From Candidatus Sphingomonas phytovorans (GTDB lineage: Bacteria; Pseudomonadota; Alphaproteobacteria; Sphingomonadales; Sphingomonadaceae): 64,000 nucleotides of DNA. The translations under genes were made by a program, and so were the position numbers. A model generated the notes under the pieces. It ran no database searches. It saw only the letters and a list, made by a program, of their open reading frames with translations, and was not told the DNA's origin. The stretch lies in the NCBI GenBank assembly GCA_029202385.1, contig CP119314.1, positions 1,118,501-1,182,500 on the forward strand, read 5' to 3'. Below, piece by piece: positions 48,923-64,000 of the stretch; within the stretch, counting starts at the first letter, position 1; each line of letters starts with the position of its first letter.

Positions 48923-48982
48923 AAGGGCGCTCTCGGGCGCGACATCGCCCCATAGTCGGTGTTTCAATCAACAGAGGTGGAT

Positions 48983-51900
48983 ATGAAGGATTCGGTTGTC
49001 GCCGGAGGTGCGCCTGTGCGCGCCCATTTGATGCGATTTGCCCTTTCGACGGCGCTCTGCACCAGTGTTGCCGCCCCGGCGTTCGCCCAGACCAGCCAGG
49101 CAGCGCCCCCTCCACGCTATAACAATGTCGACGACCTCGGCATCGACCTGACGACGGGGCAGCCGAACATCAGCTTCACGGAAGGATCGATCGGCCCGGC
49201 CAATGGCGGCATCGCCTTCACCAGGACCTGGACCTCCGGGGCGGGATGGACGGATAACTGGACCGGCGGAGCATTCAGCAAGACGGTCGGCGGTATCACC
49301 ACCTGGTATGTCGAACGTGGCGATCTTTCGGAGGCGTTCGTCCAGTCAGGCAGCACCTTCACGAACCAGCAGGGCACCGGTTCGACGCTTGGGGGTGGCC
49401 CCGCAAACCTGACCTATACCGCTGCCGATGGCACGGTCACGACGTACACCAGTTATAATATCGACGAGACCGGCTATGTCGTGAATCTCGCCTCTTGTGC
49501 CGGCGATCAGGGCACGTGCCTGCTGCCCAGCAAGATCGTCAAACCAAATGGCCTGACCTACACCTACGTCTGGAACAGGGTGTCGCGTTGCCCGAACGGA
49601 ACCGCCGGCTTCAATTGTGGCGGCAAGACCTATTACAGGTTGACGAGCATCAGCAGCAGTGCGGGGTATCAGCTCACTTTTGCCTATTCGAGCAGCGCGA
49701 TCACGGGCGCTGCGCCGTCGACCGGATGGTTCATCAAAGCGAGCGCGCAATACAGCAACACCAAGACCAGCTGCGGAAGCAGTTGTCCCTCGGTTACCTA
49801 TCCGGCCTCCACCGACTATGTCGTCGTGGACCCCGCTGGAAGGCAATGGCAGTTTTCCGGCAATGGCGGGGCGTTGTCGAAAATACGCAAGCCCGGCAGC
49901 ACCAGCGACGATGTCACGATTGCCTATGACGCAAATTCGCGCGTTTCCTCGGCCAGTTTCGTCGACCTTGGGACATGGACATATTCCTTCTCGGATGTCG
50001 GGACTGTGCGCACCGCGGTGGTCACCGATCCTTTGGGGCACGCCAGGACAATCATATCCAATATGACCATCGGTCGGCCCACCTCGGCGACGAATGGCGA
50101 GGGCAAGACGACGACATACAGCTACGGCACGAACGGCCTTCTGCAGAAGGTGACGGCGCCGGAAGGAAATTACACGCAATATAGCTATGACGCCCGCGGT
50201 AATGTCACCGAGCTGCGGCAGGTGGCCAAGGCTGGATCGGGGTTGAGCGATCTGGTGAGCACGGCGGGTTATGACGGAACCTGCTCAAGCGTCGCCAAGT
50301 GCAACAGTCCGAACTGGACGAAGGATGCCAACGGCAATCAGACGGATTACAGCTACGATCCCGCCACCGGGAATGTCCTAACCGTTCAGGCGCCAGCGGC
50401 AAGCACCGGCGGCACACGGCCAACCACGACCTACAGCTATACGACGGTCAATGGTGCGCAGGTCCTTGGCGGAACCTCGACCTGCCTTGCCGGCGCCAGC
50501 TGCGCCGGCACGGCCAACGAGCTGAAGACCAGCATCAGCTACAATGCCAACAGCTTGCCGGCGACCGTGACGAAACAGGCGGGCGACGGCTCGATCGTTG
50601 CCACCACGACACTTGGCTATGACAGTATCGGCAATGTCACCAGCGCTGATGGTCCCCTCGCGGGAAGCGATGACACCATCTATTATCGTTACGACGCCGA
50701 TCGCGAACTGGTGGGTATCGTCGCGCCGGATCCCGACGGTGCCGGGCCGCTCGTTCGCAAGGCACAGCGCAATACCTACGATGTCAGGGGGCGGGTGACC
50801 CTGGCCGAGATCGGCACCGTCATCGATGCAAGTGACGCGGCGTGGAGCGCCTTTTCGACGGTGCGGCAGGTCGCCACGATCTATGATGGCGCCGACCGTC
50901 CGCTCAGCCAGACGATGAGCGCGGGTGGCACGACCTATGCGGTGACACAGAACAGCTATGACCACCAGCGGCTCGATTGCACTGTAGCCCGACTGAACAA
51001 CGCGGCATGGGGCTCGCTACCGGCATCCGCCTGCACGTTGCAGGCCACCGGTAGCGCGGGCCCCGATCGCGTCGCCAAATATGCGTATGACAATGCCGAC
51101 CGGCAGACGAAAGTCACAACGGCTTACGGCACTGCGGATGCGTCGGACGACGCGACGATCGCCTATAGCAACAACGGCAGGCAGGCGACGGTGACCGACG
51201 CCAACAGCAATGTGACAAGCTATGCCTATGACGGGTTCGATCGGCTGTCGCGGTCCTGCTATCAGGTTACCAGCAGCGTCACCTGCGCCGGCACGCCGGT
51301 GGACTATGAGCAATTCGGCTATGATCCCAACGGCAATGTGCTGACCCGGCGCCTGCGGGACGGCAAGTCGATCGGCTTTGGTTATGATGCCCTCAATCGA
51401 CAGATCTCGACGACCTTCAACAATCCGGTCGACGTTACGGATTCGAATGTCACCTACAGTTACGATTTGCTGGGCCATCTGTTGCTGGCGCAGGATGGCA
51501 ACGGGCACAAGACGGGCTACGGCTACGACGCGCTGGGGCGCGCGACGAGCGAGGTCGGCGCCTGGGCGACCCTGGCGAGCCAGTATGACGTTGCCGGCCA
51601 GCGAACCCGGCTGACCTGGGGTGACGGGTTCTTCGTGACTTATGAATATGATACAATTGGCAACATGACCGCGATCCGTGAAAATGGCGGGTTCCTGCTC
51701 GCAAGCTATGGCTACGACAATCTCGGGCAACGCGTTTCGCGCTCGCTCGGCAACGGCACGTCGACGAGCTATGGCTATGACAACGTCTCGCGCCTGACCG
51801 CATTGAACCTCAATGGCGGCACGCAACCGAATACAATGACCTTCGGTTTCAATGCGGCAAGCCAGATCACATCGCGAACCGCGACAAACGATGGTTTCGC

Positions 51901-53191
51901 CTGGACCGGGGCGACGAATATCGATCGCCCGTATAGCGCCAATGGCCTGAACCAATATACCGCCTCGGGAAGTGTGGCGCCGACCTATGATGGTCGCGGC
52001 AATCTCATAACAGGCGGGGCATCTACCTATCTCTACAACAGCAAGAACCAGCTCTCCGGCGCAAACGGCAATTATATCTATTATGATCCGGCGGGCCGGA
52101 TCGACCAGGTGACGCAGTCGGGACTGACCTGGGATTGGGACGGCAACGCGCTTGTGGCCGAGCATCAGGGCGGCGTGATCGCGAAGCGCTATGTGCACGG
52201 CGCTGGCGTGGATGAGCCGCTCGTGGCCTATAGCGGCGCCGGTACCGGAAGCCGCACCTGGCTCGACGCTGACGAGCGCGGTTCGATCGTCAGGGTCACC
52301 GACGATGCCGGTAACGCTGTCGCCGTGAACGCATATGACGAATATGGCATCCCGGGCGGCGGCAACGCCGGGCGGTTTCAGTATACCGGGCAAATCTGGC
52401 TATCGGAGCTGGGGTTCCAATATTCCAAGGCGCGAATGTACTCGCCCACGCTAGGCCGGTTCATGCAGACCGATCCGATCGGATATGCCGACGGCGTCAA
52501 TTGGTACAATTATGTTCGCAGCGACCCGATGAACAGCGTCGATCCGCTCGGATTGCAGACCTGCCCCCACAAAGGCAATAGGGCTGCAATTGGATGCGAG
52601 GTGGTTGTGCAGCCGGCGGTAACGCCGGATGGTAACGGCGGAAATTTCAGTGATGGCAGCGGACGTTCCGTCATTCTGAATGGAACCCTAGGGCACGGCG
52701 GAGTTGCAGGGGGCGCAGCTTTAGCAGGAGGCGGAGTGGGTGCGAGAGCGTCGCAAAAGCCGAAGCCGTTCTCATGCGCCGATGCGATGAAGCAGGCTGG
52801 AAAGATCAAGGCGAGCAGCGTTGGCCTGACGGCTGTCGGAGCAATCGGCCTACTGGGCGGCGTGGGCACCTGGAAGAATCTGAGCACTGGTGCGCACGGC
52901 TACTATAGGTTCTTGGGCTTCGGTGCAGGTTTGGCTGTTGGGGGCACATTCAGCCCGCAACTATATTCGAGCATATCGGCTTTCACTGGTATGTCTGACG
53001 GCATTTCGGCGGGCTTCTCAGCGCCCATACCGCTTTTGAATCTGAGTATTGGCTTAGGTTATGCGAGTTCATCGAATGATTCTGGGACAGGTTCCGGTCT
53101 GTCCATTGATCTAGGTTCTGCGTCGCTTCCTTCGGTTGGTGTGGTAGCGACGTATACAGATACCGAGATATTCGGATGCACGAACAAGTAG
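48983..53191 (+). CDS. Sec-exported Rhs/YD-repeat protein with variable C-terminal tip
   Basis: 1402 residues. Start is ATG 48983, with AGAGG five bases upstream. Signal peptide about 1-36 (ending A-F-A-Q). The body (about 290-1150) has many YD repeats (Y-D-x-x-G-(N/R)-(V/L)), forming the beta-cocoon that encloses a toxin in this family. The conserved core ends M-Y-S-P-T-L-G-R-F-M-Q-T-D-P-I-G-Y at about 1152-1168 and D-P-L-G-L near 1190. The tip after it (about 210 residues) is Gly/Ala/Ser-rich with membrane-like stretches and no enzyme motif I recognise. A sequence of 263 bases at the core/tip junction is repeated 1035 bp downstream. Confidence 0.9.
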   Translation: MKDSVVAGGAPVRAHLMRFALSTALCTSVAAPAFAQTSQAAPPPRYNNVDDLGIDLTTGQPNISFTEGSIGPANGGIAFTRTWTSGAGWTDNWTGGAFSKTVGGITTWYVERGDLSEAFVQSGSTFTNQQGTGSTLGGGPANLTYTAADGTVTTYTSYNIDETGYVVNLASCAGDQGTCLLPSKIVKPNGLTYTYVWNRVSRCPNGTAGFNCGGKTYYRLTSISSSAGYQLTFAYSSSAITGAAPSTGWFIKASAQYSNTKTSCGSSCPSVTYPASTDYVVVDPAGRQWQFSGNGGALSKIRKPGSTSDDVTIAYDANSRVSSASFVDLGTWTYSFSDVGTVRTAVVTDPLGHARTIISNMTIGRPTSATNGEGKTTTYSYGTNGLLQKVTAPEGNYTQYSYDARGNVTELRQVAKAGSGLSDLVSTAGYDGTCSSVAKCNSPNWTKDANGNQTDYSYDPATGNVLTVQAPAASTGGTRPTTTYSYTTVNGAQVLGGTSTCLAGASCAGTANELKTSISYNANSLPATVTKQAGDGSIVATTTLGYDSIGNVTSADGPLAGSDDTIYYRYDADRELVGIVAPDPDGAGPLVRKAQRNTYDVRGRVTLAEIGTVIDASDAAWSAFSTVRQVATIYDGADRPLSQTMSAGGTTYAVTQNSYDHQRLDCTVARLNNAAWGSLPASACTLQATGSAGPDRVAKYAYDNADRQTKVTTAYGTADASDDATIAYSNNGRQATVTDANSNVTSYAYDGFDRLSRSCYQVTSSVTCAGTPVDYEQFGYDPNGNVLTRRLRDGKSIGFGYDALNRQISTTFNNPVDVTDSNVTYSYDLLGHLLLAQDGNGHKTGYGYDALGRATSEVGAWATLASQYDVAGQRTRLTWGDGFFVTYEYDTIGNMTAIRENGGFLLASYGYDNLGQRVSRSLGNGTSTSYGYDNVSRLTALNLNGGTQPNTMTFGFNAASQITSRTATNDGFAWTGATNIDRPYSANGLNQYTASGSVAPTYDGRGNLITGGASTYLYNSKNQLSGANGNYIYYDPAGRIDQVTQSGLTWDWDGNALVAEHQGGVIAKRYVHGAGVDEPLVAYSGAGTGSRTWLDADERGSIVRVTDDAGNAVAVNAYDEYGIPGGGNAGRFQYTGQIWLSELGFQYSKARMYSPTLGRFMQTDPIGYADGVNWYNYVRSDPMNSVDPLGLQTCPHKGNRAAIGCEVVVQPAVTPDGNGGNFSDGSGRSVILNGTLGHGGVAGGAALAGGGVGARASQKPKPFSCADAMKQAGKIKASSVGLTAVGAIGLLGGVGTWKNLSTGAHGYYRFLGFGAGLAVGGTFSPQLYSSISAFTGMSDGISAGFSAPIPLLNLSIGLGYASSSNDSGTGSGLSIDLGSASLPSVGVVATYTDTEIFGCTNK
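52436..52698 (+). repeat. direct repeat, left copy (core/tip junction of Rhs)
   Basis: Left copy of a direct repeat whose right copy is at 53471-53733. The two copies align without gaps. The distal 137 bases (52562-52698 and 53597-53733) look identical by eye, while the proximal part has scattered differences. Offset is 1035 bp, a multiple of three, so recombination between copies keeps the Rhs frame. Confidence 0.85.
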
Positions 53192-53204
53192 GATTTTAGG
53201 CATC

Positions 53205-53426
53205 ATGAACTACCAGTTACTATTTGTAGGATTGTTCGGAGCTGTCGTTATTCTGCGAGCCGCTGTTATCGGCAGTCTGACACCTGACGGGAACGGGATT
53301 CGACGTGAGGACGGCCCGGCACTTTTCTGGGTGGTGCTTTCGTTTGCAATATTGCTCGATATTGTCTTTTTTATTTTCGCGTTCGATGTGTCATTGGCCG
53401 GAAAGATATTGAGCGCGATCCGATAA
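53205..53426 (+). CDS. candidate immunity protein for the first Rhs tip
   Basis: 73 residues, two transmembrane segments (about 3-22 and 40-65) joined by a polar loop with T-P-D-G-N-G-I-R-R-E-D. It begins 14 bases after the Rhs stop, in the position where Rhs immunity genes usually sit. No family recognised. Membrane location would fit a tip that acts at a membrane, which is inference. Confidence 0.6.
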   Translation: MNYQLLFVGLFGAVVILRAAVIGSLTPDGNGIRREDGPALFWVVLSFAILLDIVFFIFAFDVSLAGKILSAIR

Positions 53427-53470
53427 CCAAGGCGCAGTAGCCTAACGAAGTTGTGTCGTAGCCCCTGCTG

Positions 53471-53733
53471 ATGTACTCGCCCACGCTTGACCGGTTCATG
53501 CAGACCGATCCGATCGGATATGCCAACGGCGTCAATTGGTACAATTATGTTGGATCAGATCCGGTCAACGCGATCGATCCGTTCGGTTTGCAGACTTGCC
53601 CCCACAAAGGCAATAGGGCTGCAATTGGATGCGAGGTGGTTGTGCAGCCGGCGGTAACGCCGGATGGTAACGGCGGAAATTTCAGTGATGGCAGCGGACG
53701 TTCCGTCATTCTGAATGGAACCCTAGGGCACGG
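53471..53733 (+). repeat. direct repeat, right copy (5' end of orphan tip)
   Basis: Right copy of the repeat at 52436-52698, with the distal part (53597-53733) identical by eye. Confidence 0.85.
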
Positions 53734-54175
53734 TGGCGTGGGAGGGGTAGGAGCTTTAGGCGGTGGGGGTACGGGAGCGCTGCAAAAGGACACGTCCGCC
53801 AGCCATTGTGCAGCAGTTGCAGTTAAGAAGAACGCTCGCGCTATTGCACTTGATGTGGCGAGCGTCGGATTGTCTTTAGCGCCGGGAGGAAGGGCCGGTG
53901 TCGCGCTGGGAGGCCTCGCGCTCGGAGCCGTAGGCCTTACAAATTCAGCCTTCTCAGCTGATACGAGGCGGCCCGGGATTTCACTTTCCAGCATCTCTCT
54001 TGGAATAGCTGGCTTCCACGTAGCATCTGCCGGGCCACTCGCAAGCGCATTCGAAGCCTCATCCGCAGTTGCCAAATATCTTCCTGGCATAGGAACGGGC
54101 CTTGCAGTGATTCAATCCGGCGTAGATGCCTATAACGGGTATCTTGATTATCAGGAATGTAGAGAGGGCAAATGA
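53471..54175 (+). CDS. orphan Rhs tip cassette (displaced C-terminal domain)
   Basis: 234 residues beginning inside the Rhs core motif (Y-S-P-T-L-D-R-F-M-Q-T-D-P-I-G-Y), then the repeated hinge and a second tip (H-C-A-A-V-A-V-K-K-N-A-R-A-I ending Y-L-D-Y-Q-E-C-R-E-G-K). A stop codon lies 12 bases before the ATG and no ribosome-binding site is seen. It is therefore probably a silent cassette, expressed only after recombination with the main rhs gene. The tip is Gly/Ala-rich and hydrophobic. Downstream gene overlaps by ATGA. Confidence 0.75.
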   Translation: MYSPTLDRFMQTDPIGYANGVNWYNYVGSDPVNAIDPFGLQTCPHKGNRAAIGCEVVVQPAVTPDGNGGNFSDGSGRSVILNGTLGHGGVGGVGALGGGGTGALQKDTSASHCAAVAVKKNARAIALDVASVGLSLAPGGRAGVALGGLALGAVGLTNSAFSADTRRPGISLSSISLGIAGFHVASAGPLASAFEASSAVAKYLPGIGTGLAVIQSGVDAYNGYLDYQECREGK

Positions 54176-54534
54176 AGTCAGCCTTACCCGAAAAACAGAA
54201 TCAAGGCGTCTCTCCTCGCGTTTGGGGACTCATTCTTGGACTGAGCGCAGTAGTTATATTTTTTACGCTGGTCGCACTGGGTGAGGCGGAGCGAGGAAAG
54301 ATTGCTGCGTTTTCTTTCTTTGCGATTAGTATTTCACTGAGAATTCGTTGGGAACAGCGCCATGATAGCTTGTTTTGGCCCTCAGTCTTGGCCATAACAT
54401 TCGCTCATTTACTAGTAATCGTTTTGGTAGATTGGATCCCAGAGCGAAACCCGGCGATCATATTTGCGCCGTTCACAATTCTTGATATTTTTCTTATTGT
54501 ATGGGCCTTGAGGCCGCGATCTAAGATCGAGTGA
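54172..54534 (+). CDS. candidate immunity protein for the second Rhs tip
   Basis: 120 residues with about four transmembrane segments (about 19-40, 45-60, 68-87 and 95-112). Start overlaps the orphan-tip stop (ATGA). Position and coupling fit an immunity gene paired with the tip. No homology to the first candidate immunity protein is evident, as expected for tip-specific partners. Confidence 0.6.
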   Translation: MKSALPEKQNQGVSPRVWGLILGLSAVVIFFTLVALGEAERGKIAAFSFFAISISLRIRWEQRHDSLFWPSVLAITFAHLLVIVLVDWIPERNPAIIFAPFTILDIFLIVWALRPRSKIE

Positions 54535-54987
54535 TCGCCGCAAAGTAAACCAGGCTGCTACGACGGAAACTACAACATTTCTGGTGACTTTGATGTGTTT
54601 GGTGCTGGAACCGCTGCTGCGCAGTTTCACGGTTCAATCACGAATATTGAGACAGGCGCTTCATACAATTTCGGCATACAGCTCAGCCCGGCCACAGGCG
54701 TTGGCATTGGATCGTATGAAGTGTCGGGGGCCGTTCGATCGCTCATCGCTGAGCCAGGCATCAACGTTCAAGTTGCATTTTATACAGGGGGACTTGGGCC
54801 TATTTCAGTAGGCGGCGCCTCGATTTCAGCGAATCGCAATCTGGGTGATAACCGAGGAGATGCCTCCCAGAACCTAGGCAAAATTAGTGTAGATGCAGGC
54901 GCTTCCTATTATGGAGGAGCTTTTATTGCAGATGGTACATTAAAATGGCTAGATAAATCACCACCACCGCCTTGCGCGCGCAATTAA
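54535..54987 (+). pseudogene. fragment of a third Rhs tip without a core or start
   Basis: The frame is open from directly after the preceding stop (S-P-Q-S-K-P-G-C-Y-D-G-N-Y-N) to 54987, about 150 codons, with no start codon near its beginning. A GTG at 54595 is internal. The product is Gly/Ser/Ala-rich with amphipathic beta-like strands (S-Y-N-F-G-I-Q-L, A-S-Y-Y-G-G-A-F-I) and ends in a Pro run and Cys. No Rhs core or hinge precedes it, so it looks like the 3' part of a lost tip gene whose 5' end was replaced. Confidence 0.6.
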
Positions 54988-54998
54988 GGGGAGCTGAT

Positions 54999-55331
54999 AT
55001 GCCGCCAGCCTTCTGGCAAGTTACAGGATCGGGATTGGCTTTTCCAATTGTAATGATGAATATCATGAGTCGATATGGGATAATTGGCAGAACTGTGAGC
55101 GAGAATTTATCTAAAGCTACGTTCGTGTTTTGTGCAATTGGATTGTTTCTTATTTTATTCTTGCGTGACAGGCGATTATCTCTCTTATTAATCCCCGCAA
55201 CATACGTTGTTATAGTCGCGTATGATGCGGCAACTAAAGAATTAAATGTTAATTTTCTTTATCTTGGCGGCTGGGTGTTGTGCGGAGTATTTATGTTTGT
55301 TCAGGATAAGCGCGCTCCTTTGGCTAAGTGA
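54999..55331 (+). CDS. candidate immunity protein for the third Rhs tip
   Basis: 110 residues, about three to four hydrophobic segments (about 10-25, 43-58, 63-78 and 88-103). ATG 54999 follows the strong ribosome-binding sequence AAGGGGAG five bases upstream, so it is probably expressed even though its partner tip is broken. A+T-rich for this genome. No family recognised. Confidence 0.6.
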   Translation: MPPAFWQVTGSGLAFPIVMMNIMSRYGIIGRTVSENLSKATFVFCAIGLFLILFLRDRRLSLLLIPATYVVIVAYDAATKELNVNFLYLGGWVLCGVFMFVQDKRAPLAK

Positions 55332-55340
55332 TCATGTGCC

Positions 55341-55470
55341 GCAAAAGGGCGCGTCCGCCAGCCGTGTGTAGCGGTTGCAGCTACGAAGAACGCTCGTGCT
55401 ATCGCACTTGATGTGGCGAGCGTCGGATTGTCTCTCGCGCCGGGAGGAAAGGCCGGTGTTACGCTGGGGG
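55341..55470 (+). pseudogene. frameshifted remnant of the second-tip sequence
   Basis: Closely resembles 53782-53912 (start of the second tip, encoding Q-K-x-x-S-A-S to A-P-G-G-x-A-G-V) but has a one-base deletion near 55362 that creates a TAG stop. It continues for a short way in another frame and then loses similarity. It marks the right end of the Rhs region, directly before the convergent cyclase-like gene. Confidence 0.65.
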
Positions 55471-55568
55471 GCAGAGTTGGCGTCAGGGTTTCTACGCGAG
55501 TGAAGAATCGTGGATGCGCTGGGGAGCAGTATACAGCGCCAGTCGCTGTCGCAGGTTCATGGCAACCC

Positions 55569-57542
55569 CTAAACCCCGTTGGAGCCCTCGACGAACCGTA
55601 TGAAGCGGGCTGCCGTGATCGCGCGGGGCAGGGCATGTTGTATCAGGTTTATGCTGTCCCTGTTCCCGGCGGTGTCCGGCGTCCAGTTCTCCAGCGCCGT
55701 GCGCAGCTTCGGCAGATCGAGCCGGCGCGCCATCGCGGGGTTCTTCGCCAAGGCTGCCAGCTCATCGATCAGGGCGCCGCGATCGCGCGCGATCCTGGCT
55801 GCCCAGTCGGCCGCCTGGCGGCCACGTCGTGTCTCGTTGAGCACCATATCGGGGATTCGGCCTTGCAGCATGCGGCGTGCAAGCCAGCGCCGTTTGCCGC
55901 CGCGCAGATACTGGTCGTCGGGAATTCCCATGCAAAACTCGACCAAAGGACGGTACGCCGTCGGATCGCGGCTGGGGATGCCGTGGATCAGATCGAGGCC
56001 CTGCCTGATATCGCCCATTTCGCTCATCGCGTTGCCGAAGCCGGCCGCGCGATATGCCCGACTCGATCGCCGTGCGCGGAAAGAAATGTCGTGGCCCATG
56101 TCGCGGGCGCGATCGTGGACGGCCATCTCGCGGGCATAATCGGGATCGAGCGGGCACCAGCTATCGAGCGCCCCACTATCCGACGCAGCATCGTCGCTCG
56201 CCGAATGCCGGCGCGCCCAGCGGCGGTAAAGGGGATCGGGCAGGAACGGCAGCAGCGCCTGCGATGCGAAGGCCCGGGCAAACGAGCGGTCGCCCTGTGT
56301 GGCTTTCAGCTCGCGCGCCAGCCTCAGCCATCGACCACGCGCAAACCAGGATGGAAAGGCGCCCTTGCCGTCGAAACTGAACGACAGATTCCCCGCCGCG
56401 CCGAGCAACAGGACATCGCAACCGCGGCTCCTGGCCCGTGCGCGCAGTGCGTGGATCCAGTGGAGATTCATGGCGTTGCGCGGTGCCGCGCCGGCCATCA
56501 GGAACATGGCGGACAGCTTGTGATCGAACGACAGGCCAGCGGCGTCAAGCGTCTCGGTCTCGAGCATGGGATACATCGCAGCGAGCGCGGCCACGTGATG
56601 GCGCTCGTCGCCGAAGAAGGACGGGCCAAAGAAGGACGGGTCGGAAAAGGATGGGCCGGAAAAGGATGGGTCGGTGCCGTTGCAGCTTGCTTCGGGTATG
56701 CTGGTGAGCCCGAGCAGCGGCCGATCCCCGTCGGTCGCCTCCATCGCGAAAACAGCCACCGCCTGCGAATCCAGGCCACCGCTCAGGCTGATCGCCGGCC
56801 TGGCAAAACCATCGAGTGCCGCCCTTGTGCCTTCAAGCAACAGGGCATTCGCCGCTTCGACATAGTCAGCGTCTCGCCTGAGACGTATATTGGGCAGCGT
56901 CGCGCAGTCATAATAGCGGCGTGTCGTGATGCCAGCGGGCGAAATCGCGGCGCGAGTGCCGGTCGGAATGCGACTGACATTGCTGTACCAGCCGCGCTCC
57001 TCCTCGAAATAGTTCAGGTAGAGGCTGTCGGCGATCTTCTGCTCGTCGATCTGGGGTGCAACCTCGCCGCTGGCGAACACGATGCGTGCGGTCGAGGCGA
57101 TGATGAGGCGGTCGCCGTCGTGCCAAACGTGCAGCGGGGGCGCCTGCAAGGGAGATCGGGCAAGGCGGACGCGGCGGCCGTCGGAGCTGACAAGGACGGT
57201 CGCGAACTGGCCGACCGCATGCAGATCGATCGCGTCGCCCCACCGGGCAAAGCCGGCGGCGTAGAGCGCAGAGAAATCGCGGGTGACGATCCCGAGATCG
57301 CGACGCAGGGCGTCGGCATTGTCCAGATAGCCGTTGAACATGATGCGCGATCCGCAGGGTGCAACCGCCGGCTGCCACACGCGCGCGATGGCGGGCGTCG
57401 GGCAATGCGCCGCAAACAGCGCGCGACCAGTATGATGATGCCCGACTGCCACATTGATCCCCGCAGCCAGCGACCGGGTGAAGCGATCGACGACGCCCCG
57501 ATCGACCGGCACATCGTGCCAGTTGAGATAGAGCGCGATCAC
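55569..57542 (-). CDS. asparagine-synthetase-like cyclase (lasso C-protein type)
   Basis: 657 residues. The N-terminal half is a class-II amidotransferase fold (V-G-Q-F-A-T-V-L-V-S, I-M-F-N-G-Y-L-D-N), but position 2 is Ile instead of the catalytic Cys, so it cannot release ammonia from glutamine. This loss is usual in lasso-peptide cyclases (McjC). The C-terminal half is the ATP-pyrophosphatase synthetase domain with S-G-G-L-D-S at about 254-259. A Pro-Ser-Phe repeat (four units) interrupts it at about 292-311. Start is GTG 57542, overlapping the PqqD-like stop (GTGA). Expected reaction: adenylation of a side-chain carboxylate and ring closure with an N-terminal amine. Substrate gene not found. 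Confidence 0.83.
   Translation of the reverse strand: MIALYLNWHDVPVDRGVVDRFTRSLAAGINVAVGHHHTGRALFAAHCPTPAIARVWQPAVAPCGSRIMFNGYLDNADALRRDLGIVTRDFSALYAAGFARWGDAIDLHAVGQFATVLVSSDGRRVRLARSPLQAPPLHVWHDGDRLIIASTARIVFASGEVAPQIDEQKIADSLYLNYFEEERGWYSNVSRIPTGTRAAISPAGITTRRYYDCATLPNIRLRRDADYVEAANALLLEGTRAALDGFARPAISLSGGLDSQAVAVFAMEATDGDRPLLGLTSIPEASCNGTDPSFSGPSFSDPSFFGPSFFGDERHHVAALAAMYPMLETETLDAAGLSFDHKLSAMFLMAGAAPRNAMNLHWIHALRARARSRGCDVLLLGAAGNLSFSFDGKGAFPSWFARGRWLRLARELKATQGDRSFARAFASQALLPFLPDPLYRRWARRHSASDDAASDSGALDSWCPLDPDYAREMAVHDRARDMGHDISFRARRSSRAYRAAGFGNAMSEMGDIRQGLDLIHGIPSRDPTAYRPLVEFCMGIPDDQYLRGGKRRWLARRMLQGRIPDMVLNETRRGRQAADWAARIARDRGALIDELAALAKNPAMARRLDLPKLRTALENWTPDTAGNRDSINLIQHALPRAITAARFIRFVEGSNGV
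56611..56670 (-). repeat. four tandem 15-bp units inside the cyclase gene
   Basis: Four consecutive 15-base units (56611-56625, 56626-56640, 56641-56655, 56656-56670), two of type GAAGGACGGG and two of type AAAGGATGGG in their cores. They encode P-S-F-S-G, P-S-F-S-D, P-S-F-F-G, P-S-F-F-G. The period is a multiple of three, so copy-number change would keep the frame. Confidence 0.9.
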
Positions 57543-57802
57543 GCCGCGACCACGAAGCCCGCTTGTTCGAGCTCGCTGAGAAACGCATCGATATCGGCCG
57601 CGCACCTGTCAGGCGCGATATCGTAGCGTTCGGCCAGCAGTGCCGCGATGGCGGCAGAATCGCGGTGTCCGTCGATCGCCTGCCAGATCGCCATGCCGGT
57701 CTCCTTCAGAGCGTTGAACCGGCCGGTGTCGACCTTCATCAGCACCGCCTCGCCATCGATCTTGGTCTCGAGGAACTGCCCGATATTCTTGCGGAAGATC
57801 AT
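57539..57802 (-). CDS. PqqD-like peptide-binding protein (lasso B1 / RRE type)
   Basis: 87 residues. The winged-helix RiPP-recognition element pattern is clear: F-L-E-T-K-I-D-G-E-A-V-L-M, F-N-A-L-K-E-T-G-M-A-I-W-Q-A-I-D-G, then A-A-L-L-A-E-R-Y-D-I and D-I-D-A-F-L-S-E-L-E-Q-A-G-F-V. Proteins of this kind bind the leader of a precursor peptide and deliver it to the peptidase and cyclase. ATG 57802 has GGAGG eight bases upstream and overlaps the sulfotransferase stop (ATGA). No cognate leader peptidase (B2, transglutaminase fold) is found nearby. Confidence 0.87.
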   Translation of the reverse strand: MIFRKNIGQFLETKIDGEAVLMKVDTGRFNALKETGMAIWQAIDGHRDSAAIAALLAERYDIAPDRCAADIDAFLSELEQAGFVVAA

Positions 57803-58692
57803 TTGCCTGGCCTCCATTCAGCCCCCCCGGCGTATCCGAAGCGGCGCATCACCGGGAGGTGGGCCGATCGGATACGGCCTGCCTGCGCGGCGGAGAGGTG
57901 ACTGAGCCAGTCGCCTGCACGTCCGCTGCGGAAAAACGGAGTTGCGCGCCGCGGGGCTTCGCGAAAGCCGCGGTCGCGCTCGGCGGCCTGGAGCGCCTCG
58001 ATTCGGGTATGTCGCACCGCCCGGTCGACCCTGGCGGGATCAAGGACGGTTTCGGGCCGCGCGAAGGCAATCACGCTTGCAAGCGCGTCGGCGGCATTCG
58101 CCAGCATGTCCTCGTACCGGACGACAAGGACAGGGATGTCGGGTTGATCCACCCAGCTCGACACATGCTCGCTCCAGTCACCGAGCAGTTGCGGGATCTG
58201 CGATGATCCACGCGCGCCGATCGTCATCGCCGCATCGCACAATTTATCCACTGCGCGTTCCATGTCGGCATGGCCATCGTGAAACGCGTTCGACACGGCG
58301 ACGTCGAGCGGGTTGCGGATGATGTAGACGACCACGCCCGATGCAGCAGGCGGGAAAAGCCAGCGGCCGTCGGCAAGGCGCTGCTGGCGGTCATGGACCT
58401 TCAACCACACCGGCGCTGTGTTGCGACGGGCCATGATGTCGAAGACATGTGGCTGAAGAGCCAGCGTTTCGTGCGGCAACAGATCGCTGCTGGATAACCC
58501 AAGAAAATTGTCGAACAGCCAGCGCGATCTGGCGACGCCACGGGTCACGCCGGGCGCGTTGATATCGTGCGGATCGTCAGTTTCGGAGAAGTAGTTGGCG
58601 AGCAGCAGCCTGAGCCAGGTGTTGCCCGACTTGGGATAGGAAGCGAGCCAGTCGATGCGGCCGCCGGTCTCTGGCAGCTCAGCCGGTGCCAC
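57799..58692 (-). CDS. PAPS-dependent sulfotransferase
   Basis: 297 residues. The 5'-phosphosulfate loop Y-P-K-S-G-N-T-W (19-26) and the 3'-phosphate motif R-N-P-L-D-V-A-V-S (126-134) are both intact. It transfers sulfate from PAPS to a hydroxyl or amine. The acceptor cannot be read from sequence, but the operon context points to a peptide or modified peptide. Overlaps HprK-like by 14 bases at its 5' end and PqqD-like by four at its 3' end. Confidence 0.88.
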   Translation of the reverse strand: MAPAELPETGGRIDWLASYPKSGNTWLRLLLANYFSETDDPHDINAPGVTRGVARSRWLFDNFLGLSSSDLLPHETLALQPHVFDIMARRNTAPVWLKVHDRQQRLADGRWLFPPAASGVVVYIIRNPLDVAVSNAFHDGHADMERAVDKLCDAAMTIGARGSSQIPQLLGDWSEHVSSWVDQPDIPVLVVRYEDMLANAADALASVIAFARPETVLDPARVDRAVRHTRIEALQAAERDRGFREAPRRATPFFRSGRAGDWLSHLSAAQAGRIRSAHLPVMRRFGYAGGAEWRPGK

Positions 58693-59548
58693 GGATATCG
58701 GCCTCGATCATGGAAATGCTGGAAGCGAAGTCTGCCGGCGCGCGCGACCGGTTGAACCGCGATATGGCGACAGCCGCGCTCAGGCGCGAGGCCGCAGCGA
58801 AATAGCCGGCCTGTTCGGCGATCGCATTGCAGAACTGCGGACGATAATAGGCCGAACGCAACGCTGCGAAGCGGTCTGCTCCGATGACCGGGGCTATGCC
58901 CGGGTCGGCGTTGACGATGCTTTCCAGCACATAGAGCCGGTGGATCGGCAACGGCTCCCCATCGAACGCGATTTGGTCGGCGACATAGAATTTGTCGAGA
59001 CCGGGCCGAACCGCGTCATCCGACTGACGATCGGTCAGCAGCAGTGCATCCGCCCACAGCTTCAACCGCCTGTGGCCCGGCAGCGCCATCACCTGGCCCG
59101 GATCGCTCAGGTCAAGCACGAGCACATCGTCTGAGCAGACCGCCAGGCCGCGCTGGGCGAGGGCGGCGGCCAATGTCGACTTTCCCTCGCCCGACACGCC
59201 GGTAAAGGCATAGATGCCGCCCGCATGCGATACGGCCGACGCATGCAACGGCACCAGTCCGTTCAGCCAGGCGATCGCGCCATAGACCGAACCGTCGAAG
59301 AACAGCCTCACTTCCTTGTCCAAGATGTCCTTGGTGCGGGCGTAGACGGTGCCGGCACCCCGGCGATAATGGAAGGCAAGGCCCCTCGGAAGCCTGAGCA
59401 GGAAGGCGTCGTGTGAAATCTCGTAGGTCGGGGTAACGGTCAAGGCATTGGGCAGGGACGCCGGCACGCTTCCCTCGCTCAGCCCGACTTCCGCCTGCAA
59501 CCGCGCCATGCCGGCAGGTACAGCCATATTGATGGGAAACTCCTCCAT
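58679..59548 (-). CDS. HPr-kinase-like serine kinase
   Basis: 289 residues. The HprK-like P-loop G-V-S-G-E-G-K-S lies at 117-124, the conserved H-A-S-A-V at 102-106 and the acidic pair C-S-D-D at about 138-141. The HprK/P N-terminal domain and full HPr-binding signature are absent, so the usual PTS target is unlikely. Related kinases in lasso-peptide clusters (paeninodin type) phosphorylate the C-terminal Ser of the precursor, a precedent for the role here. ATG 59548 is used, with 59527 as an alternative. 12 bases after the histidine-kinase stop. Confidence 0.83.
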   Translation of the reverse strand: MEEFPINMAVPAGMARLQAEVGLSEGSVPASLPNALTVTPTYEISHDAFLLRLPRGLAFHYRRGAGTVYARTKDILDKEVRLFFDGSVYGAIAWLNGLVPLHASAVSHAGGIYAFTGVSGEGKSTLAAALAQRGLAVCSDDVLVLDLSDPGQVMALPGHRRLKLWADALLLTDRQSDDAVRPGLDKFYVADQIAFDGEPLPIHRLYVLESIVNADPGIAPVIGADRFAALRSAYYRPQFCNAIAEQAGYFAAASRLSAAVAISRFNRSRAPADFASSISMIEADIRGTG

Positions 59549-59560
59549 TGCGCCGCCGGC

Positions 59561-61549
59561 CTATTGGAGCAAATCGGGCGGGCGATCAATTTTTGAGGGT
59601 TGATCCGCGGCTGGAAAGCCGATGTACGCGGGAGCAGACGGTGAGGGCGGCTGGAGAACCGGCAGAAAAAGCGTGAACCGCGCGCCCGTGCCCCCGGATC
59701 GGACGTCGACGCGTCCGCCGATGGCGGTGGCACGATGGACCTGATTGTTCAGGCCGCGACCATGGCCCGCCATGACAGGATCGAAACCGCGGCCATTGTC
59801 CGTGACGCTGATCATGACCTCACCACCAGTGGTATGGGTTGCGACCTTTATCTCGCTCGCATTCGCATGCTTGATGACGTTGGTGAATGCCTCCTGCAGG
59901 ATGCGCAGGATATGAAGCGAATGGCGCTGGTCGAGCCAGGCAAGCGGCGGCGCTTCGGTGACTTCCCAGCGCAAGCTGATGTTCGTGGCCTCCAGCCGCG
60001 GCTGGAGGCGGAAGCGCAACGTGCCGAGCAGCAGCAGCAGATCGGTCTCGACCGGTTCCATCGAATCGATCGTGAGCTTGAGGTCATCGATACAACTCTT
60101 GAGCAGGTCTGCGATGGCGGTCTCGTCCAGTTCGCCATGTTCCACCACGCGCAACGCAGTGATCAACGAAGAGCCAAGCCCGTCGTGCATATCCTGCATA
60201 AGGCGTTGGCGCTCCTGATGGATGAGTTCGCGCCGCTCGACCTCGCGGCGTTTCTGGTGGCTTGCAAGCAGCTCAGCCTCGCGCGCTGCGAGCCGCTCGC
60301 CAAGGACGATATTAGCGCGTTCCACCTCGCCCACCGCAACCGTATAGCGGCTGAGGATGACGTGGCAGAACGCGATGGTCATCGCGGTCTGCGCATAGAC
60401 GGACAGGAATATGTTCTCGATATTGACGAAGTTGTTCTGGAGCATCCAGTCATAGGCGCCGAGCAGCGCACCGAGCACGCCCCAGGCGGCAAGCGCGCAT
60501 CCCTGCAGCGAGCGAGCGCGCCAACTCCAGTAGAGCCCGTTCAGGCAGACCAGATTGCCGATCACGAACATCGCCGGATACATCAACGGCGCGACGATGG
60601 TCGCGTCCTGCGAGCCTGCCACGAGTGGTAGCGTCGCAATCGCGAAGAACGCCGTTATGATGGCCACCGTCCAAGTCAGCAGCGTCTGACGATGCAGGTG
60701 GATTCTGATCAGGAACAGGTGGACGCTCGCGATGATCCACATGATCGAATTGACGGTAAGCCAGCCAAACCAGGCATCGGAAATCGGCAGACGATCCAGT
60801 CCCATGTAATTGTGCATGGTCCGCACGAACGTCGCGACGGTCACGGTGAAGAACAGCAGGTAGAGCGTTTCCCGCCGCCGGCCGAACCAGACGAACAGCG
60901 CGAAGATGCCACTCGCTAGAAAGGCCGCGCTGCCGATATACGGCAACTGGGCCTGAAAGAAGTTGCGCACCATGTAGGCGGGGCCAACCTCCGCATAGCT
61001 GCCGACCCAGAGGCTCGACAACGCACCGCCGATGCCGCGAACATGACGCAGCCGTACCACGATGTCGCGTGGCGGCGTACCCCCTGCGGTGTCATCGAAG
61101 GCTATCCAGAGCGGCTGGTTCGAGCCATTCCATTGCAGGTTCGCATGCGACTGGTAGTGGAGGGCACCGTCGACATAGATCGCGATCTCACCGTCCGTCT
61201 TCCAGCGTGGGATATAGAGATAGGCCTCGGAGGGAGGATGGGCCCCGGCGGGCAGGCGGAAATGATACCAGGTGGTCTGGGTCGGCGTGAGCGAGACGTC
61301 ATCGGCTTGCCCCGGCAGAATCTTGGGGTGTGGCGCATAGGGCAACTGGACGTGGTGCCAGGTGCCCATGATCGAGCGTGGATCTACCATGCGGGGCGGC
61401 CGAGCATAGCCATCGGTATATTGAATGAGGATGTTTGCCTCGGTGAGGTGGATGCCGTTCGGCTTGCTCGCTGAGTAAATGCCGATCAACACCGCAAACA
61501 CTGCCAGCACCACGATGGCGTAGTTGCGAAGACCTCTAAAGAATTCCAT
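59561..61549 (-). CDS. 7TM sensor histidine kinase (DISM type)
   Basis: 662 residues. An N-terminal anchor (about 10-26) precedes an exported sensor region with the jelly-roll pattern of 7TMR-DISM proteins (Y-L-Y-I-P-R-W-K-T-D-G-E-I-A-I-Y-V-D-G). Seven membrane helices follow (about 200-400), then a coiled coil. The HisKA_3 H-box is M-Q-D-M-H-D-G-L-G-S-S-L near residue 445, and the HATPase has F-T-N-V-I-K-H-A and D-N-G-R-G-F. NarX/DegS-like output to a NarL-type regulator. Overlaps the response-regulator gene by 14 bases and precedes the RiPP-like genes by 12, so it should control them. Confidence 0.9.
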   Translation of the reverse strand: MEFFRGLRNYAIVVLAVFAVLIGIYSASKPNGIHLTEANILIQYTDGYARPPRMVDPRSIMGTWHHVQLPYAPHPKILPGQADDVSLTPTQTTWYHFRLPAGAHPPSEAYLYIPRWKTDGEIAIYVDGALHYQSHANLQWNGSNQPLWIAFDDTAGGTPPRDIVVRLRHVRGIGGALSSLWVGSYAEVGPAYMVRNFFQAQLPYIGSAAFLASGIFALFVWFGRRRETLYLLFFTVTVATFVRTMHNYMGLDRLPISDAWFGWLTVNSIMWIIASVHLFLIRIHLHRQTLLTWTVAIITAFFAIATLPLVAGSQDATIVAPLMYPAMFVIGNLVCLNGLYWSWRARSLQGCALAAWGVLGALLGAYDWMLQNNFVNIENIFLSVYAQTAMTIAFCHVILSRYTVAVGEVERANIVLGERLAAREAELLASHQKRREVERRELIHQERQRLMQDMHDGLGSSLITALRVVEHGELDETAIADLLKSCIDDLKLTIDSMEPVETDLLLLLGTLRFRLQPRLEATNISLRWEVTEAPPLAWLDQRHSLHILRILQEAFTNVIKHANASEIKVATHTTGGEVMISVTDNGRGFDPVMAGHGRGLNNQVHRATAIGGRVDVRSGGTGARFTLFLPVLQPPSPSAPAYIGFPAADQPSKIDRPPDLLQ

Positions 61550-62204
61550 GGCTTCTGGCTTCGAAAATTGCTTCGGCCTTCGATTTTACCTCAAGCTTCT
61601 GGTAGATTCTTCGGACAAAGGTCATGACCGTGTTGCGGGAGATCGACATGAGTTCGGCGATCTCGTCATAGCTGAAGCCCTTGGTGATGAGCTGGAGCGC
61701 TTCGCGTTCGCGCGGCGACAAGGGAGCCGCCAATGGTGCCAGTGCTTCGGGCTGCGGTTCGTGCGGGCGAAAGCGCAGCAGTATCTGGCGCGCGATACGC
61801 GGGCTGATCGGGCTGCCGCCCGAATGGAGGCAGCGTATCTCTTCTGCCATCCTTTGGGCCGAACTGTCCTTGAGCAGATAGCCCGTGGCACCCGCCTCGA
61901 TCGACGGGATGACGTGCCTGTCGTCGGCGAAGGTGGTGCTGACCATGATCCCGCAGAACGGCCAGGCGATATGCGCCGCGCGGATGACATCAATCCCAGA
62001 TCCGTCTGGCAGTCCCAGGTCGACGACGAGGATATCGACCGGCTCGCCCTCCAGCAGTCTGGATGCCTGGGCAACATTATGGGCGGTCCCCGCGAGGATC
62101 ATGTCGCCGGCCGCGATAATGGCGGCGGCAAAGCTATCCTGAAACGAAAGATCGTCCTCGACCAGGGCAATACGCAGGATGGCCGAGCCGTTGGTCGCAG
62201 TCAT
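61536..62204 (-). CDS. NarL/FixJ-type response regulator
   Basis: 222 residues. Receiver domain with the phospho-acceptor Asp in V-D-L-G-L-P-D-G-S-G and the conserved Lys in G-Y-L-L-K-D-S. The C-terminal LuxR-type helix-turn-helix reads L-S-P-R-E-R-E-A-L-Q-L-I-T-K-G ... N-T-V-M-T-F-V-R-R-I-Y-Q-K-L. First gene of the leftward operon. Divergent from the TpsB gene; the gap has a 16-base perfect palindrome (62300-62315). Confidence 0.93.
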   Translation of the reverse strand: MTATNGSAILRIALVEDDLSFQDSFAAAIIAAGDMILAGTAHNVAQASRLLEGEPVDILVVDLGLPDGSGIDVIRAAHIAWPFCGIMVSTTFADDRHVIPSIEAGATGYLLKDSSAQRMAEEIRCLHSGGSPISPRIARQILLRFRPHEPQPEALAPLAAPLSPREREALQLITKGFSYDEIAELMSISRNTVMTFVRRIYQKLEVKSKAEAIFEARSHGIL

Positions 62205-62299
62205 CGGCCGATCCGTTCCCCCGCGGGCGCTCGCCCTCCCAGGCCGCTGTTCGACGGCTTGTTCGGGCCGGTTTTACCACAACGGGTCAGGGCGTCATG

Positions 62300-62315
62300 T
62301 CGCTATTTATAGCGA
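62300..62315. promoter_or_regulatory. palindrome upstream of response-regulator and TpsB genes
   Basis: TCGCTAT-TT-ATAGCGA: perfect 7-base inverted repeat with 2-base spacer, between the leftward two-component operon and the rightward TpsB gene. Candidate NarL/LuxR-type operator for the adjacent regulator. Confidence 0.5.
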
Positions 62316-62428
62316 TATGTGGATCTATTTCTTCACCCTAGAAATGATCGGGAGACGGGGTGCCGGACGCATGGCGTTCGAAATGACAATCAGCCTTGTC
62401 ACCGTTCGACCGCCGGGGGAGCGACGCG

Positions 62429-64000
62429 ATGCTAGCGGGGATATCATGCGACGGCAGCATCGCTGGCCGTATGGCAGCCCGGCATAGGATAGGTCGTCGG
62501 GCGGTCGCCGGTGTCGGGCTGCTGGCAGGCGCGTCGGCGGGGATTCCGGTTCTGGCTCAGACCGCGAGCCAGATCACGCCCCCGACCTATGCTCCCCCCG
62601 TCGAAGGACGATCCGCGTCGCCACTGATGCTGCCGGCGGACACACTCATGGCGCCGCCCGTCGGGGCCGAGAAGCTGTTCGTGACACCGGCGGGCGTCGA
62701 GACGGAGGGCGGGATGCTATCATCCGCCGCCCTTACTGCGCTGCGCGAAACACTAGTCGGCAAGCGGATCAGTGTCGCTGCCATCTTTGCGGCAGCGGGC
62801 GTGGCGGAGGCCGCGGAGGCACGGCGGGGGCGTGTCCTGCTGCGGATCGTGGTGCCGCGGCAGGATATCGCCGACGGCGCGACAATACGCTTCGCGGTGG
62901 TCGAAGGATTTATCGAAAGGGTCGACCTGTCGGGCGTGCCCGCGAGGGTACGGGGGCGGATCGGCGCGGTGCTGGCGGACCTGACCGGGCGGCCCGACGT
63001 GACGCTTGGGCAAATCGAGCGCCGGTTGACACTGGCTGCCGAGGTTCCTGGTGTCGTGGTGCGCTCAACGCTTGCGGCCGGCGTGCGGCCGGGCGGTACC
63101 GTGCTGAGAGTCGACGCCACCTGGCGGTCGGTTAGCGGTTTCTTCACCGTCGACAACTCGCTCGGCACGACGCTGGGGCGCGAGGCATTTGGGGTCGGCA
63201 TCGATCTCAATTCAGTGTTCGGGGCGGGCGAGGCTATCTATTTGCGGGCCTCCGGCCTTCCGACGCTGGGTCGCGAGACGAGCTTTCTCGATTCCACCCC
63301 TCGTAACCGTGCGCTCGCGGTGGGTGCGATCATACCGGTCGGCCGCGACGGCCTCGCGATCACGGTAGAAGGCACCGATGCGCGCACCGCACCACGGCAC
63401 GACGTGTCGCTTCCCGGGTTCGCCAGCCGTTTCCGCCGCCTGTCGCTGGCGGTGCGCTATCCTGTCGTGCATCGACGGGCGCTGACGGTCGGTGTCGAGG
63501 CTCGCCTCGATGCCGAAGACGAACGTGTCGGGATCGTTACGCCCGCGATCCTGCCGCTGTCGCTCGACCGGCTGCGCGTCGCCCGGGCCAATCTGGATGT
63601 GAGCGCGTATCTGCCCGGCGGCGGCAGTGCGAGTGGCCGGGTCGAGGCGTCCTTCGGAATCAACGGACTCGGTGCCCGGTCCGCGGCTGACGCAAGTGGC
63701 GTGCTGCCGCTGTCGCGTGCGGGCAGCGATGCCGATTTCACCAAGTTGCTGCTGTCGGCGAGCGTCGATCAGCCGGTCGCCACTCATCTGGTGCTGGCGT
63801 TGCGCGCGCGTGGGCAGACAAGTTTCGGCCGGCCGCTTGGCAATGCAGAACAGATCGGCGTGGCGTCGCTCGACGCCATCTCACCGCTATCGTCAGGCAC
63901 GCTTCAGGGCGATGCCGGCTATGTTGCTCGCGGCGAAGCGCGGAGCCCCTTTGTGTTCGGGCGAAAAGGCCTGCTCGCCAGCGTCGCGCCCTATGCGTTC
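62429..64000 (+). CDS. two-partner-secretion outer-membrane transporter (TpsB/FhaC-like), 3' end outside window
   Basis: The frame is open from 62429 to the window end, 524 codons without a stop. Start ATG 62429 has GGGGGAG seven bases upstream. A later ATG at 62471 is possible. Signal peptide ends V-L-A-Q near residue 44. A Pro-rich segment follows, then a POTRA domain (V-L-L-R-I-V-V-P-R-Q-D-I-A-D-G-A ... V-V-E-G-F-I-E-R-V-D-L-S-G-V) at about 135-185. The rest is barrel (from about 215) with F-T-V-D-N-S-L-G-T-T-L-G-R. ShlB/FhaC/HecB family: exports a large TpsA exoprotein. The partner is likely just beyond the window. Confidence 0.85.
   Translation, partial: MLAGISCDGSIAGRMAARHRIGRRAVAGVGLLAGASAGIPVLAQTASQITPPTYAPPVEGRSASPLMLPADTLMAPPVGAEKLFVTPAGVETEGGMLSSAALTALRETLVGKRISVAAIFAAAGVAEAAEARRGRVLLRIVVPRQDIADGATIRFAVVEGFIERVDLSGVPARVRGRIGAVLADLTGRPDVTLGQIERRLTLAAEVPGVVVRSTLAAGVRPGGTVLRVDATWRSVSGFFTVDNSLGTTLGREAFGVGIDLNSVFGAGEAIYLRASGLPTLGRETSFLDSTPRNRALAVGAIIPVGRDGLAITVEGTDARTAPRHDVSLPGFASRFRRLSLAVRYPVVHRRALTVGVEARLDAEDERVGIVTPAILPLSLDRLRVARANLDVSAYLPGGGSASGRVEASFGINGLGARSAADASGVLPLSRAGSDADFTKLLLSASVDQPVATHLVLALRARGQTSFGRPLGNAEQIGVASLDAISPLSSGTLQGDAGYVARGEARSPFVFGRKGLLASVAPYAF

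Follow-up and report, generated by a model that had tools for sequence, protein, structure and literature searches.

The DNA considered here is a 64,000-nucleotide stretch (the window) that covers positions 1118501-1182500 of the single-contig 5.45-Mb genome of Candidatus Sphingomonas phytovorans. At 55569..62204 it carries six minus-strand genes for a response regulator (RR), a histidine kinase (HK), an HprK-like kinase (K), a sulfotransferase (ST), a PqqD-like leader-binding protein (B1) and a lasso-type macrolactam cyclase (C). As judged from sequence comparisons, this operon probably supplies tailoring and cyclisation to a kinase-type lasso peptide pathway that has become attached to a two-partner secretion (TPS) locus; we put the probability at roughly 0.7. 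An original prediction had described the operon as a two-component-controlled system for a ribosomally synthesised and post-translationally modified peptide (RiPP), with neither leader peptidase B2 nor precursor. Its observation was confirmed, its interpretation partly supported. The operon's odd features can be explained simply: the precursor gene lies nearby, the peptidase is probably shared, and the sensor is TPS-bound.

Lasso Peptide Genes in the Operon

A list of open reading frames (ORFs) and gene calling showed that the six genes overlap or nearly touch, as had been predicted. Sphingomonas sp. QA11, which bears the same species label as the window genome, has all six in identical order, with ratios of nonsynonymous to synonymous substitutions (dN/dS) of 0.03-0.22. 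The assignment of the last four genes to lasso peptide formation was borne out by domain matches, motifs and the cyclase tree. The best NCBIfam match of the cyclase was the lasso cyclase model NF033535 (6.9e-33, versus 7.3e-19 for asparagine synthase), and Pfam Asn_synthase matched at 6e-15. The amidotransferase cysteine is missing, as stated in the prediction: there is no Cys at position 2 (MIALY, versus MCSIF in E. coli AsnB). B1 matched Pfam PqqD over the cut-off (2.5e-19, 69.8 bits, cut-off 23.4) and the lasso PqqD model NF033536 under it (5.7e-13, 48.8 bits, cut-off 80). The sulfotransferase carries, by eye, a YPKSGNTW motif; from its family we take PAPS (3'-phosphoadenosine-5'-phosphosulfate) to be its substrate. 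In the kinase, the motifs PLHAS, GKS and SDD were matched by eye to the His-Lys-Asp-Asp motif named in a passage of PMC9266682. The HprK-related model TIGR04352 gave a sub-threshold match (5.1e-8), and all Hpr kinase models stayed below cut-off in a Pfam-type domain scan. The NCBIfam matches of cyclase, B1 and kinase each lie under the curated cut-off. The prediction had called kinase plus sulfotransferase plus cyclase under a dedicated sensor unusual; lasso clusters with kinase and sulfotransferase genes are on record in passages of PMC8498205, and such genes recur at loci L036, L038 and L043. No ABC exporter was detected among the six genes in domain scans. The cyclase start at 57542 is backed by aligned relatives (a longer ORF runs from 57605), and the B1 start at 57802 is the gene caller's choice (a longer ORF runs from 57817).

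Location and Anatomy of the Precursor

Searches for short ORFs and motifs in the two gaps flanking the operon (55332-55568 and 62205-62428) returned neither a WxxP-type precursor nor B2. The earlier statement that no precursor is visible nevertheless falls, because a precursor gene (MNIHDSHDIPDAAPAPRRPWTTPRLERLGSMDDTMQDATQPPNDGSASPSLHAS) lies just off the window, at a distance of 6.8 kb from the operon and 5 kb from the window end, 26 bp 3' of the tpsA stop codon. QA11 encodes a 51-residue peptide with a WTAPKL motif between HK and K on the opposite strand, and with this peptide as query two homologues were found in the window's genome (E values 6e-14 and 3e-12; match spans 1187545-1187676 and 3907361-3907486). 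The second, at 3.91 Mb, follows a second TpsA gene and precedes a second TpsB gene; no lasso enzyme was recognised by eye among the genes of the surrounding 19 kb. QA11 has three precursors, one inside the operon and two behind tpsA genes, and around one of the latter (4.78 Mb) enzymes are likewise absent. ERG5 has two, one behind tpsA and one at a contig end, and both of those in R647 overlap the end of tpsA, by 14 and 17 nt. Thus, seven of nine precursors in four genomes (seven of the eight that are decidable) stand directly behind tpsA, spaced by 19-27 bp or overlapping it, and one stands between HK and K (QA11).

In the search of the genus (n = 295 genomes), scoring was limited to the top candidates per genome: 4 each for the cyclase and HK, 5 for TpsB and 23 for the precursor. 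A cyclase match at E ≤ 1e-30 was found in 40 genomes, and an identity of at least 62% in only four: the window's own (G000), QA11 (G144, 84%), ERG5 (G168, 71%) and R647 (G240, 62%), the next-best value being 36%. The precursor profile matched these same four genomes. Two random four-genome sets would coincide among 295 with a chance of 1 in 3.1e8; because the profile was built from the matching four, the co-occurrence draws its weight from the 291 genomes that gave no match. In the protein database, 15 proteins were of the precursor type at E ≤ 0.001, the named ones all being annotated as "hypothetical protein," and no NCBIfam model matched any of the six precursors submitted.

The precursor found in the QA11 operon raised the idea that a precursor had been deleted from the window operon, in line with a simple local deletion. 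This was ruled out, since ERG5 shares the window's HK-kinase junction and HK C terminus. ERG5 branches outside the pair of window and QA11, so that by parsimony QA11 gained its operon precursor.

Three features recur in the precursors: the leader motif WxxPxL, Asp at a fixed distance and Ser at the C terminus. All 22 members of a set picked by eye near cyclases (W/YxxP motif) ended in Ser and had Asp or Glu 19-22 residues past the motif Pro, 17 of them exactly at +21; this set omitted some candidates, including two at L076 ending in Thr and Gly. Because it had been picked by eye, the count was repeated by a fixed rule that took short ORFs outside called genes, with the motif and a fitting length, within 6 kb of a cyclase match at 31 loci. 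Among the resulting 36 motif-bearing ORFs, 25 had Asp or Glu at +19 to +22. A C-terminal Ser occurred in 22 of these 25, compared with 3 of the 11 lacking the acidic residue. The exceptions were L076 (Thr, likely a precursor) and L086 and L097 (probably noise). In a wider alignment, 38 of 40 rows end in Ser (one peptide is present twice); candidates at five further loci of the window's genome include two with other ends (Cys at L034, Glu at L035). By eye, position -2 is Thr, Val or Ile in the TPS-linked precursors and many others, and Ile or Val at -2 is on record in a passage of PMC10368454. According to passages of PMC8498205 and PMC9266682, the C-terminal Ser of a lasso precursor is the residue that such kinases phosphorylate. 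The Ser/Asp anatomy fits these kinases and a macrolactam closed onto Asp. If Thr is taken as residue -2, the predicted core of the window precursor is QDATQPPNDGSASPSLHAS, with a putative ring Q1-D9.

The position behind tpsA could alternatively mean that no free lasso peptide is made and that TpsA or another envelope target carries the modified peptide or is joined to it, with the cyclase serving as an intermolecular ligase. Such a role would agree with the seven precursor genes behind or overlapping tpsA, of which the two at 3.91 Mb (own genome) and 4.78 Mb (QA11) have no enzymes nearby, and with the operon's lack of an ABC exporter. However, the leader/Asp/Ser anatomy is lasso-like and is kept in relatives without a TPS match in the stretch, and such a peptide is missing from most genomes that have this TpsB (see below). 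A passage of PMC11006600 also reports lasso clusters that lack a D transporter. We consider this alternative quite improbable.

Probable Source of the Leader Peptidase

The absence of B2 from the operon was confirmed in a profile search of the whole genome with PF13471, which matched at only two places, L038 and L037. L037 is, by layout, a classical lasso cluster. L038 (4.99 Mb) is a complete kinase-type cluster with K, ST, B1, B2, C and a precursor, and its B2 scored 75.1 bits against NF033537 (cut-off 33). As read from the genome sequence, there are six kinase-type cyclase loci (the window, L033, L034, L035, L036 and L038) and one kinase-type B2. Unassigned proteins at L034, L036 and L033 were considered as divergent B2 and rejected; those tested were a DsbB/thioredoxin protein, an ATP-grasp protein and a FUSC protein.

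A B2 gene was present in all seven genus genomes tested and in all 11 genomes of relatives behind the loci, QA11 and R647 belonging to both sets. QA11 carries an orthologue of L038 (L186), and R647 has a kinase-type B2 at L182 beside a weakly matching cyclase; in neither is there a B2 by the operon. In ERG5, L187 holds a K-ST-B1-B2 set followed by a gene that by eye resembles a TonB-dependent receptor; the 18 kb examined there gave no cyclase match, and the window-type cyclase of ERG5 is on a different contig from K-ST-B1. In G079 and G272, B2 adjoins the cyclase. A cyclase locus lacking B2 occurs in seven of the 11 genomes: QA11, R647, three Croceicoccus and two Roseibaca. Each Croceicoccus has a full locus, in which B2 stands next to K, B1, precursor and cyclase, plus a satellite of precursor and cyclase (L081, L082, L088 and L205-L207; at L207 the gene caller drew another frame, and the place of B2 was taken from the genome-wide B2 search). 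In the two Roseibaca, B2 is accompanied by K, ST, B1 and a precursor candidate, and the cyclase lies ~23 kb away on the same contig. These gene counts and the synteny support, short of proof, the sharing of B2 in trans, and B2 is probably supplied to the window system by another locus. Among the options named in the original prediction, the evidence favours enzymes that act on a peptide encoded at another place.

Could the system mature without B2, the leader being removed by a housekeeping protease or not at all, so that K, ST, B1 and C suffice? The operons of the window, QA11 and R647 have no B2 beside them, and, to go by the title of Zyubko et al. 2019, pseudomycoidin formation in vivo reportedly proceeds in the absence of both leader and leader peptidase. 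Against this stand the retention of B2 in the window's own genome and in 11 of 11 relatives' genomes, the sister locus L077, where B2 lies between B1 and C, and the Thr, Val or Ile at -2. We regard maturation without B2 as unlikely.

Cyclase Phylogeny and Selection

A protein database search, in which the best 8000 candidates were scored and 120 relatives listed, yielded at least 222 cyclase relatives at E ≤ 1e-20 with identities up to 90%; the named sources among those listed were Sphingomonas, other sphingomonads, rhodobacters and Minwuia. In a tree of 47 cyclases, drawn with a midpoint root, the sequences of the window, QA11, ERG5 and R647 formed one group (100/99), all without a local B2. 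Its sister was L077 (95/91), a locus with TpsB, precursor, B1, B2, C and K. The window group fell within a group of 40 rows (99/98) that includes an annotated Priestia lasso cyclase of the paeninodin family. Proteins of E. coli, Streptomyces and Nitratidesulfovibrio that are annotated as asparagine synthetase fell outside it, as did four classical lasso cyclases, those of QA11, ERG5 and R647 forming their own group (100/100). The window cyclase was therefore not placed with asparagine synthetases, which agrees with its original classification. Priestia and L035_own joined on long branches, for which reason their place is unsure. The cyclase of L037 is not among the 47 rows, L103_c was dropped because its match was not covered by a single open frame, and ten loci were not entered (L084, L090, L093, L094, L097, L100-L102, L104 and L105). 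Loci with gene-calling faults (L078, L090, L093, L099, L174, L175 and L178) were not counted as absences.

B2 is absent beside the same genes in QA11 and R647 and present in the sister L077; the relatives thus make its loss older than this strain. By parsimony, B2 would have been lost once from the locus before the window, QA11, ERG5 and R647 diverged. Over the whole tree, local absence of B2 required 7 changes, compared with a mean of 10.8 after shuffling (as low in 3 of 500), which implies that B2 left the locus, or was gained, repeatedly.

Relative to QA11, dN/dS was 0.16 for C, 0.13 for B1, 0.10 for ST, 0.22 for K, 0.18 for HK and 0.03 for RR (97% identical). The values for TpsB, TpsA and the L038 B2 were 0.17, 0.14 and 0.08, and those for the two precursors 0.23 and 0.10, with 11 changes each. 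The six genes are under purifying selection, and the system is maintained. A decaying cluster that has lost precursor and B2 and whose 3' side has been overrun by an RHS island is highly improbable. Debris of this island does come as close as about 100 bp to the cyclase stop codon, and the island is absent in QA11. Nevertheless, the precursors are intact, the dN/dS values of the four lasso genes and the precursors are low and rest on few changes, and QA11, free of the island, likewise has no B2 there.

Two-partner Secretion Locus and Its Probable Regulator

The operon RR-HK-K-ST-B1-C and the divergent operon TpsB-TpsA-precursor flank one conserved promoter region (Table 1). TpsB, scanned from 62627, matched ShlB over the cut-off and POTRA_2 just under it. 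TpsA comprises 1592 residues; its gene lies 3' of tpsB and divergent from the RR gene. A 7TM topology is plausible for HK, in which six hydrophobic stretches exceeded a simple Kyte-Doolittle cut-off.

Table 1. Features of the operon and the adjacent secretion locus, in window coordinates
Feature	Position	Strand	Remarks
C, lasso-type macrolactam cyclase	55569..57542	-	SGGLDS motif; 4-nt overlap with B1
B1, PqqD-like leader-binding protein (RiPP recognition element)	57539..57802	-	4-nt overlap with ST
ST, sulfotransferase	57799..58692	-	Sulfotransfer_1, 3.4e-21; 14-nt overlap with K
K, HprK-like lasso-precursor kinase	58679..59548	-	weak family match; 12-bp gap to HK
HK, membrane histidine kinase	59561..61549	-	HATPase_c match; 14-nt overlap with RR
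RR, NarL/LuxR-type response regulator	61536..62204	-	Response_reg and GerE matches
27-bp block with palindrome TCGCTATTTATAGCGA	62298..62324	.	identical in window, QA11 and ERG5
TpsB, outer-membrane transporter	62471..64000 (runs off window; stop 64207)	+	start chosen by comparison with ERG5
TpsA exoprotein	64222-69000	+	TPS domain, GLUG repeats
Precursor peptide gene	69027-69191 (genome 1187527-1187691 including stop; past window end)	+	homology, WxxPxL motif

The two-component genes had been regarded as a dedicated sensor of the RiPP operon, a view that did not hold. HK homologues of at least 59% identity occur in 15 of the 295 genomes, 12 of which have no window-type cyclase. In each of the 11 cyclase-free genomes inspected (G230 was left out), a divergent TpsB gene (E value 5e-19 or better) lies about 2.4-2.6 kb from HK. 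These TpsB proteins are only distantly like that of the window, and the single TpsA scanned among them (L171) has the TPS domain and no GLUG match. The sensor thus goes with TPS loci, one of which the RiPP genes joined; HK and RR are probably the regulator of the adjacent TPS locus. In ERG5, the order is B1-ST-K-HK-RR followed by TpsB-TpsA, with the cyclase elsewhere beside a TpsA gene and a precursor; in R647 it is TpsB-TpsA-precursor-K-B1-C, with HK and RR not in the stretch. Window-type TpsB (E ≤ 1e-30) was found in 23 of the 295 genomes, 19 of them without the precursor.

The RR-TpsB intergenic region (62290-62500) differs between the window and QA11 by 1 mismatch in 211 positions, far fewer than in the genes. 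Its 27-bp block is a candidate shared operator for both divergent operons. The palindrome was also considered as a genome-wide RR site, and this was rejected: there is one other exact copy, and a control pattern was equally frequent (20 versus 17 at ≤2 mismatches), for which reason the palindrome remains a candidate. That other copy, at 3493540, is part of a longer hairpin 5' of a gene that by eye is mreB-like, with neither TPS nor RiPP genes beside it.

Further observations concern the surroundings. Within the cyclase gene, a 15-bp tandem repeat at 56610-56674 adds a PSFxxPSFx stretch that is absent or shorter in the other 29 aligned relatives. Positions 48959-55503 hold an RHS/YD-repeat gene and, behind it, incomplete copies of its C-terminal part (53471-54175, with remnants to about 55500, close to the cyclase stop), and this island is missing at the matching place in QA11. 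Rfam gave a single chance-level match (17.7 bits, gathering cut-off 42). Phage tail-collar-like proteins stand beside the kinase-type lasso-like loci L036, L038, L040, L111, L182, L186 and L243 (called by eye, L243 by annotation; one was checked), and several of these loci also hold a protein of ~100 residues without a PHROGs match.

Discussion

We propose that the RR/HK pair would sense an envelope signal and drive both divergent operons. B1 would bind the leader of the precursor, K would phosphorylate its C-terminal Ser, and ST might add sulfate either to a side chain or to the phosphate. Cleavage of the leader would occur in trans at Thr(-2), through the genome's sole kinase-type B2, that of the L038 cluster. 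The peptide may be made together with the TpsA exoprotein and work outside the cell with or beside it. A more far-reaching version is rather unlikely: a lasso-type ligase system dedicated to the TPS exoprotein, in which the peptide would come from the tpsA transcript, the enzymes would act in trans on several tpsA-linked precursors, and the product would be loaded onto or exported with the exoprotein.

Several points weigh against the proposed lasso pathway. Because the best candidates per genome alone were scored, the genus-wide absences are not exhaustive. The 19 of 23 TpsB genomes without precursor indicate that TPS can do without the peptide; the tpsA-precursor pairing is confined to four related genomes, and the contig of the sister locus L077 has TpsB and precursor and no TpsA. 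The precursor-like ORFs at L076 with Thr and Gly ends depart from the common anatomy, and the predicted core does not start with Gly. The product is a prediction, the supply of B2 in trans is deduced from gene counts and synteny, the fit of the L038 B2 to this B1-leader pair is presumed, and the palindrome is a candidate site for RR binding.

Known kinase-type lasso systems offer the closest comparison. A passage of PMC5067487 gives the gene order as C A K B1 B2 D for paeninodin and as A B1 B2 C K D for proteobacterial clusters; a kinase of this type is SyanK of Sphingobium yanoikuyae (passages of PMC8498205 and PMC9266682). The window system shares with them the split B1, the Cys-less cyclase, the HprK-like kinase with its His-Lys-Asp-Asp motif, the W/YxxP leader motif and the C-terminal Ser of the precursor, and its cyclase groups with the annotated Priestia cyclase, apart from three asparagine synthetases. 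It differs in that the operon has neither a local B2 nor a local ABC exporter, in that the precursor lies outside the operon behind tpsA, with a predicted core that is not Gly-first, and in the sulfotransferase within the operon. The basic chemistry is also that of classical sphingomonad lasso clusters (sphingocin, in a passage of PMC11006600), of which the window's genome has one, L037, as judged by its precursor and B gene. The classical clusters of QA11, ERG5 and R647 differ by a longer B protein (216-219 residues), ETxG-type leaders and their separate cyclase group. The TPS locus resembles the FhaC/FhaB and ShlB/ShlA type, with ShlB and POTRA-type domains in TpsB beside a TpsA with TPS domain and GLUG repeats; unlike that type, it has a RiPP precursor gene after tpsA and a RiPP operon behind the divergent two-component genes.

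What is new is a kinase/sulfotransferase-type lasso system coupled to TPS exoproteins, with the tpsA-precursor pairing as the unexpected part. In the open-licence literature of PubMed Central we found no paper describing this pairing, nothing joining a RiPP precursor with filamentous hemagglutinin and nothing on lasso, sulfotransferase and kinase together in Sphingomonas; to judge from titles and abstract starts, co-mentions of lasso peptides and TPS there concern Burkholderia bacteriocins. The findings suggest that sphingomonad lasso clusters may be split over the chromosome, with precursors, cyclases and tailoring sets scattered and one B2 serving many. Split systems of this kind would escape any search that demands adjacent precursor, B and C genes. 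The role of these peptides is little known, and the repeated placement of the precursor behind a TPS exoprotein gene offers a lead to a testable context: surface, adhesion and cell-cell contact.

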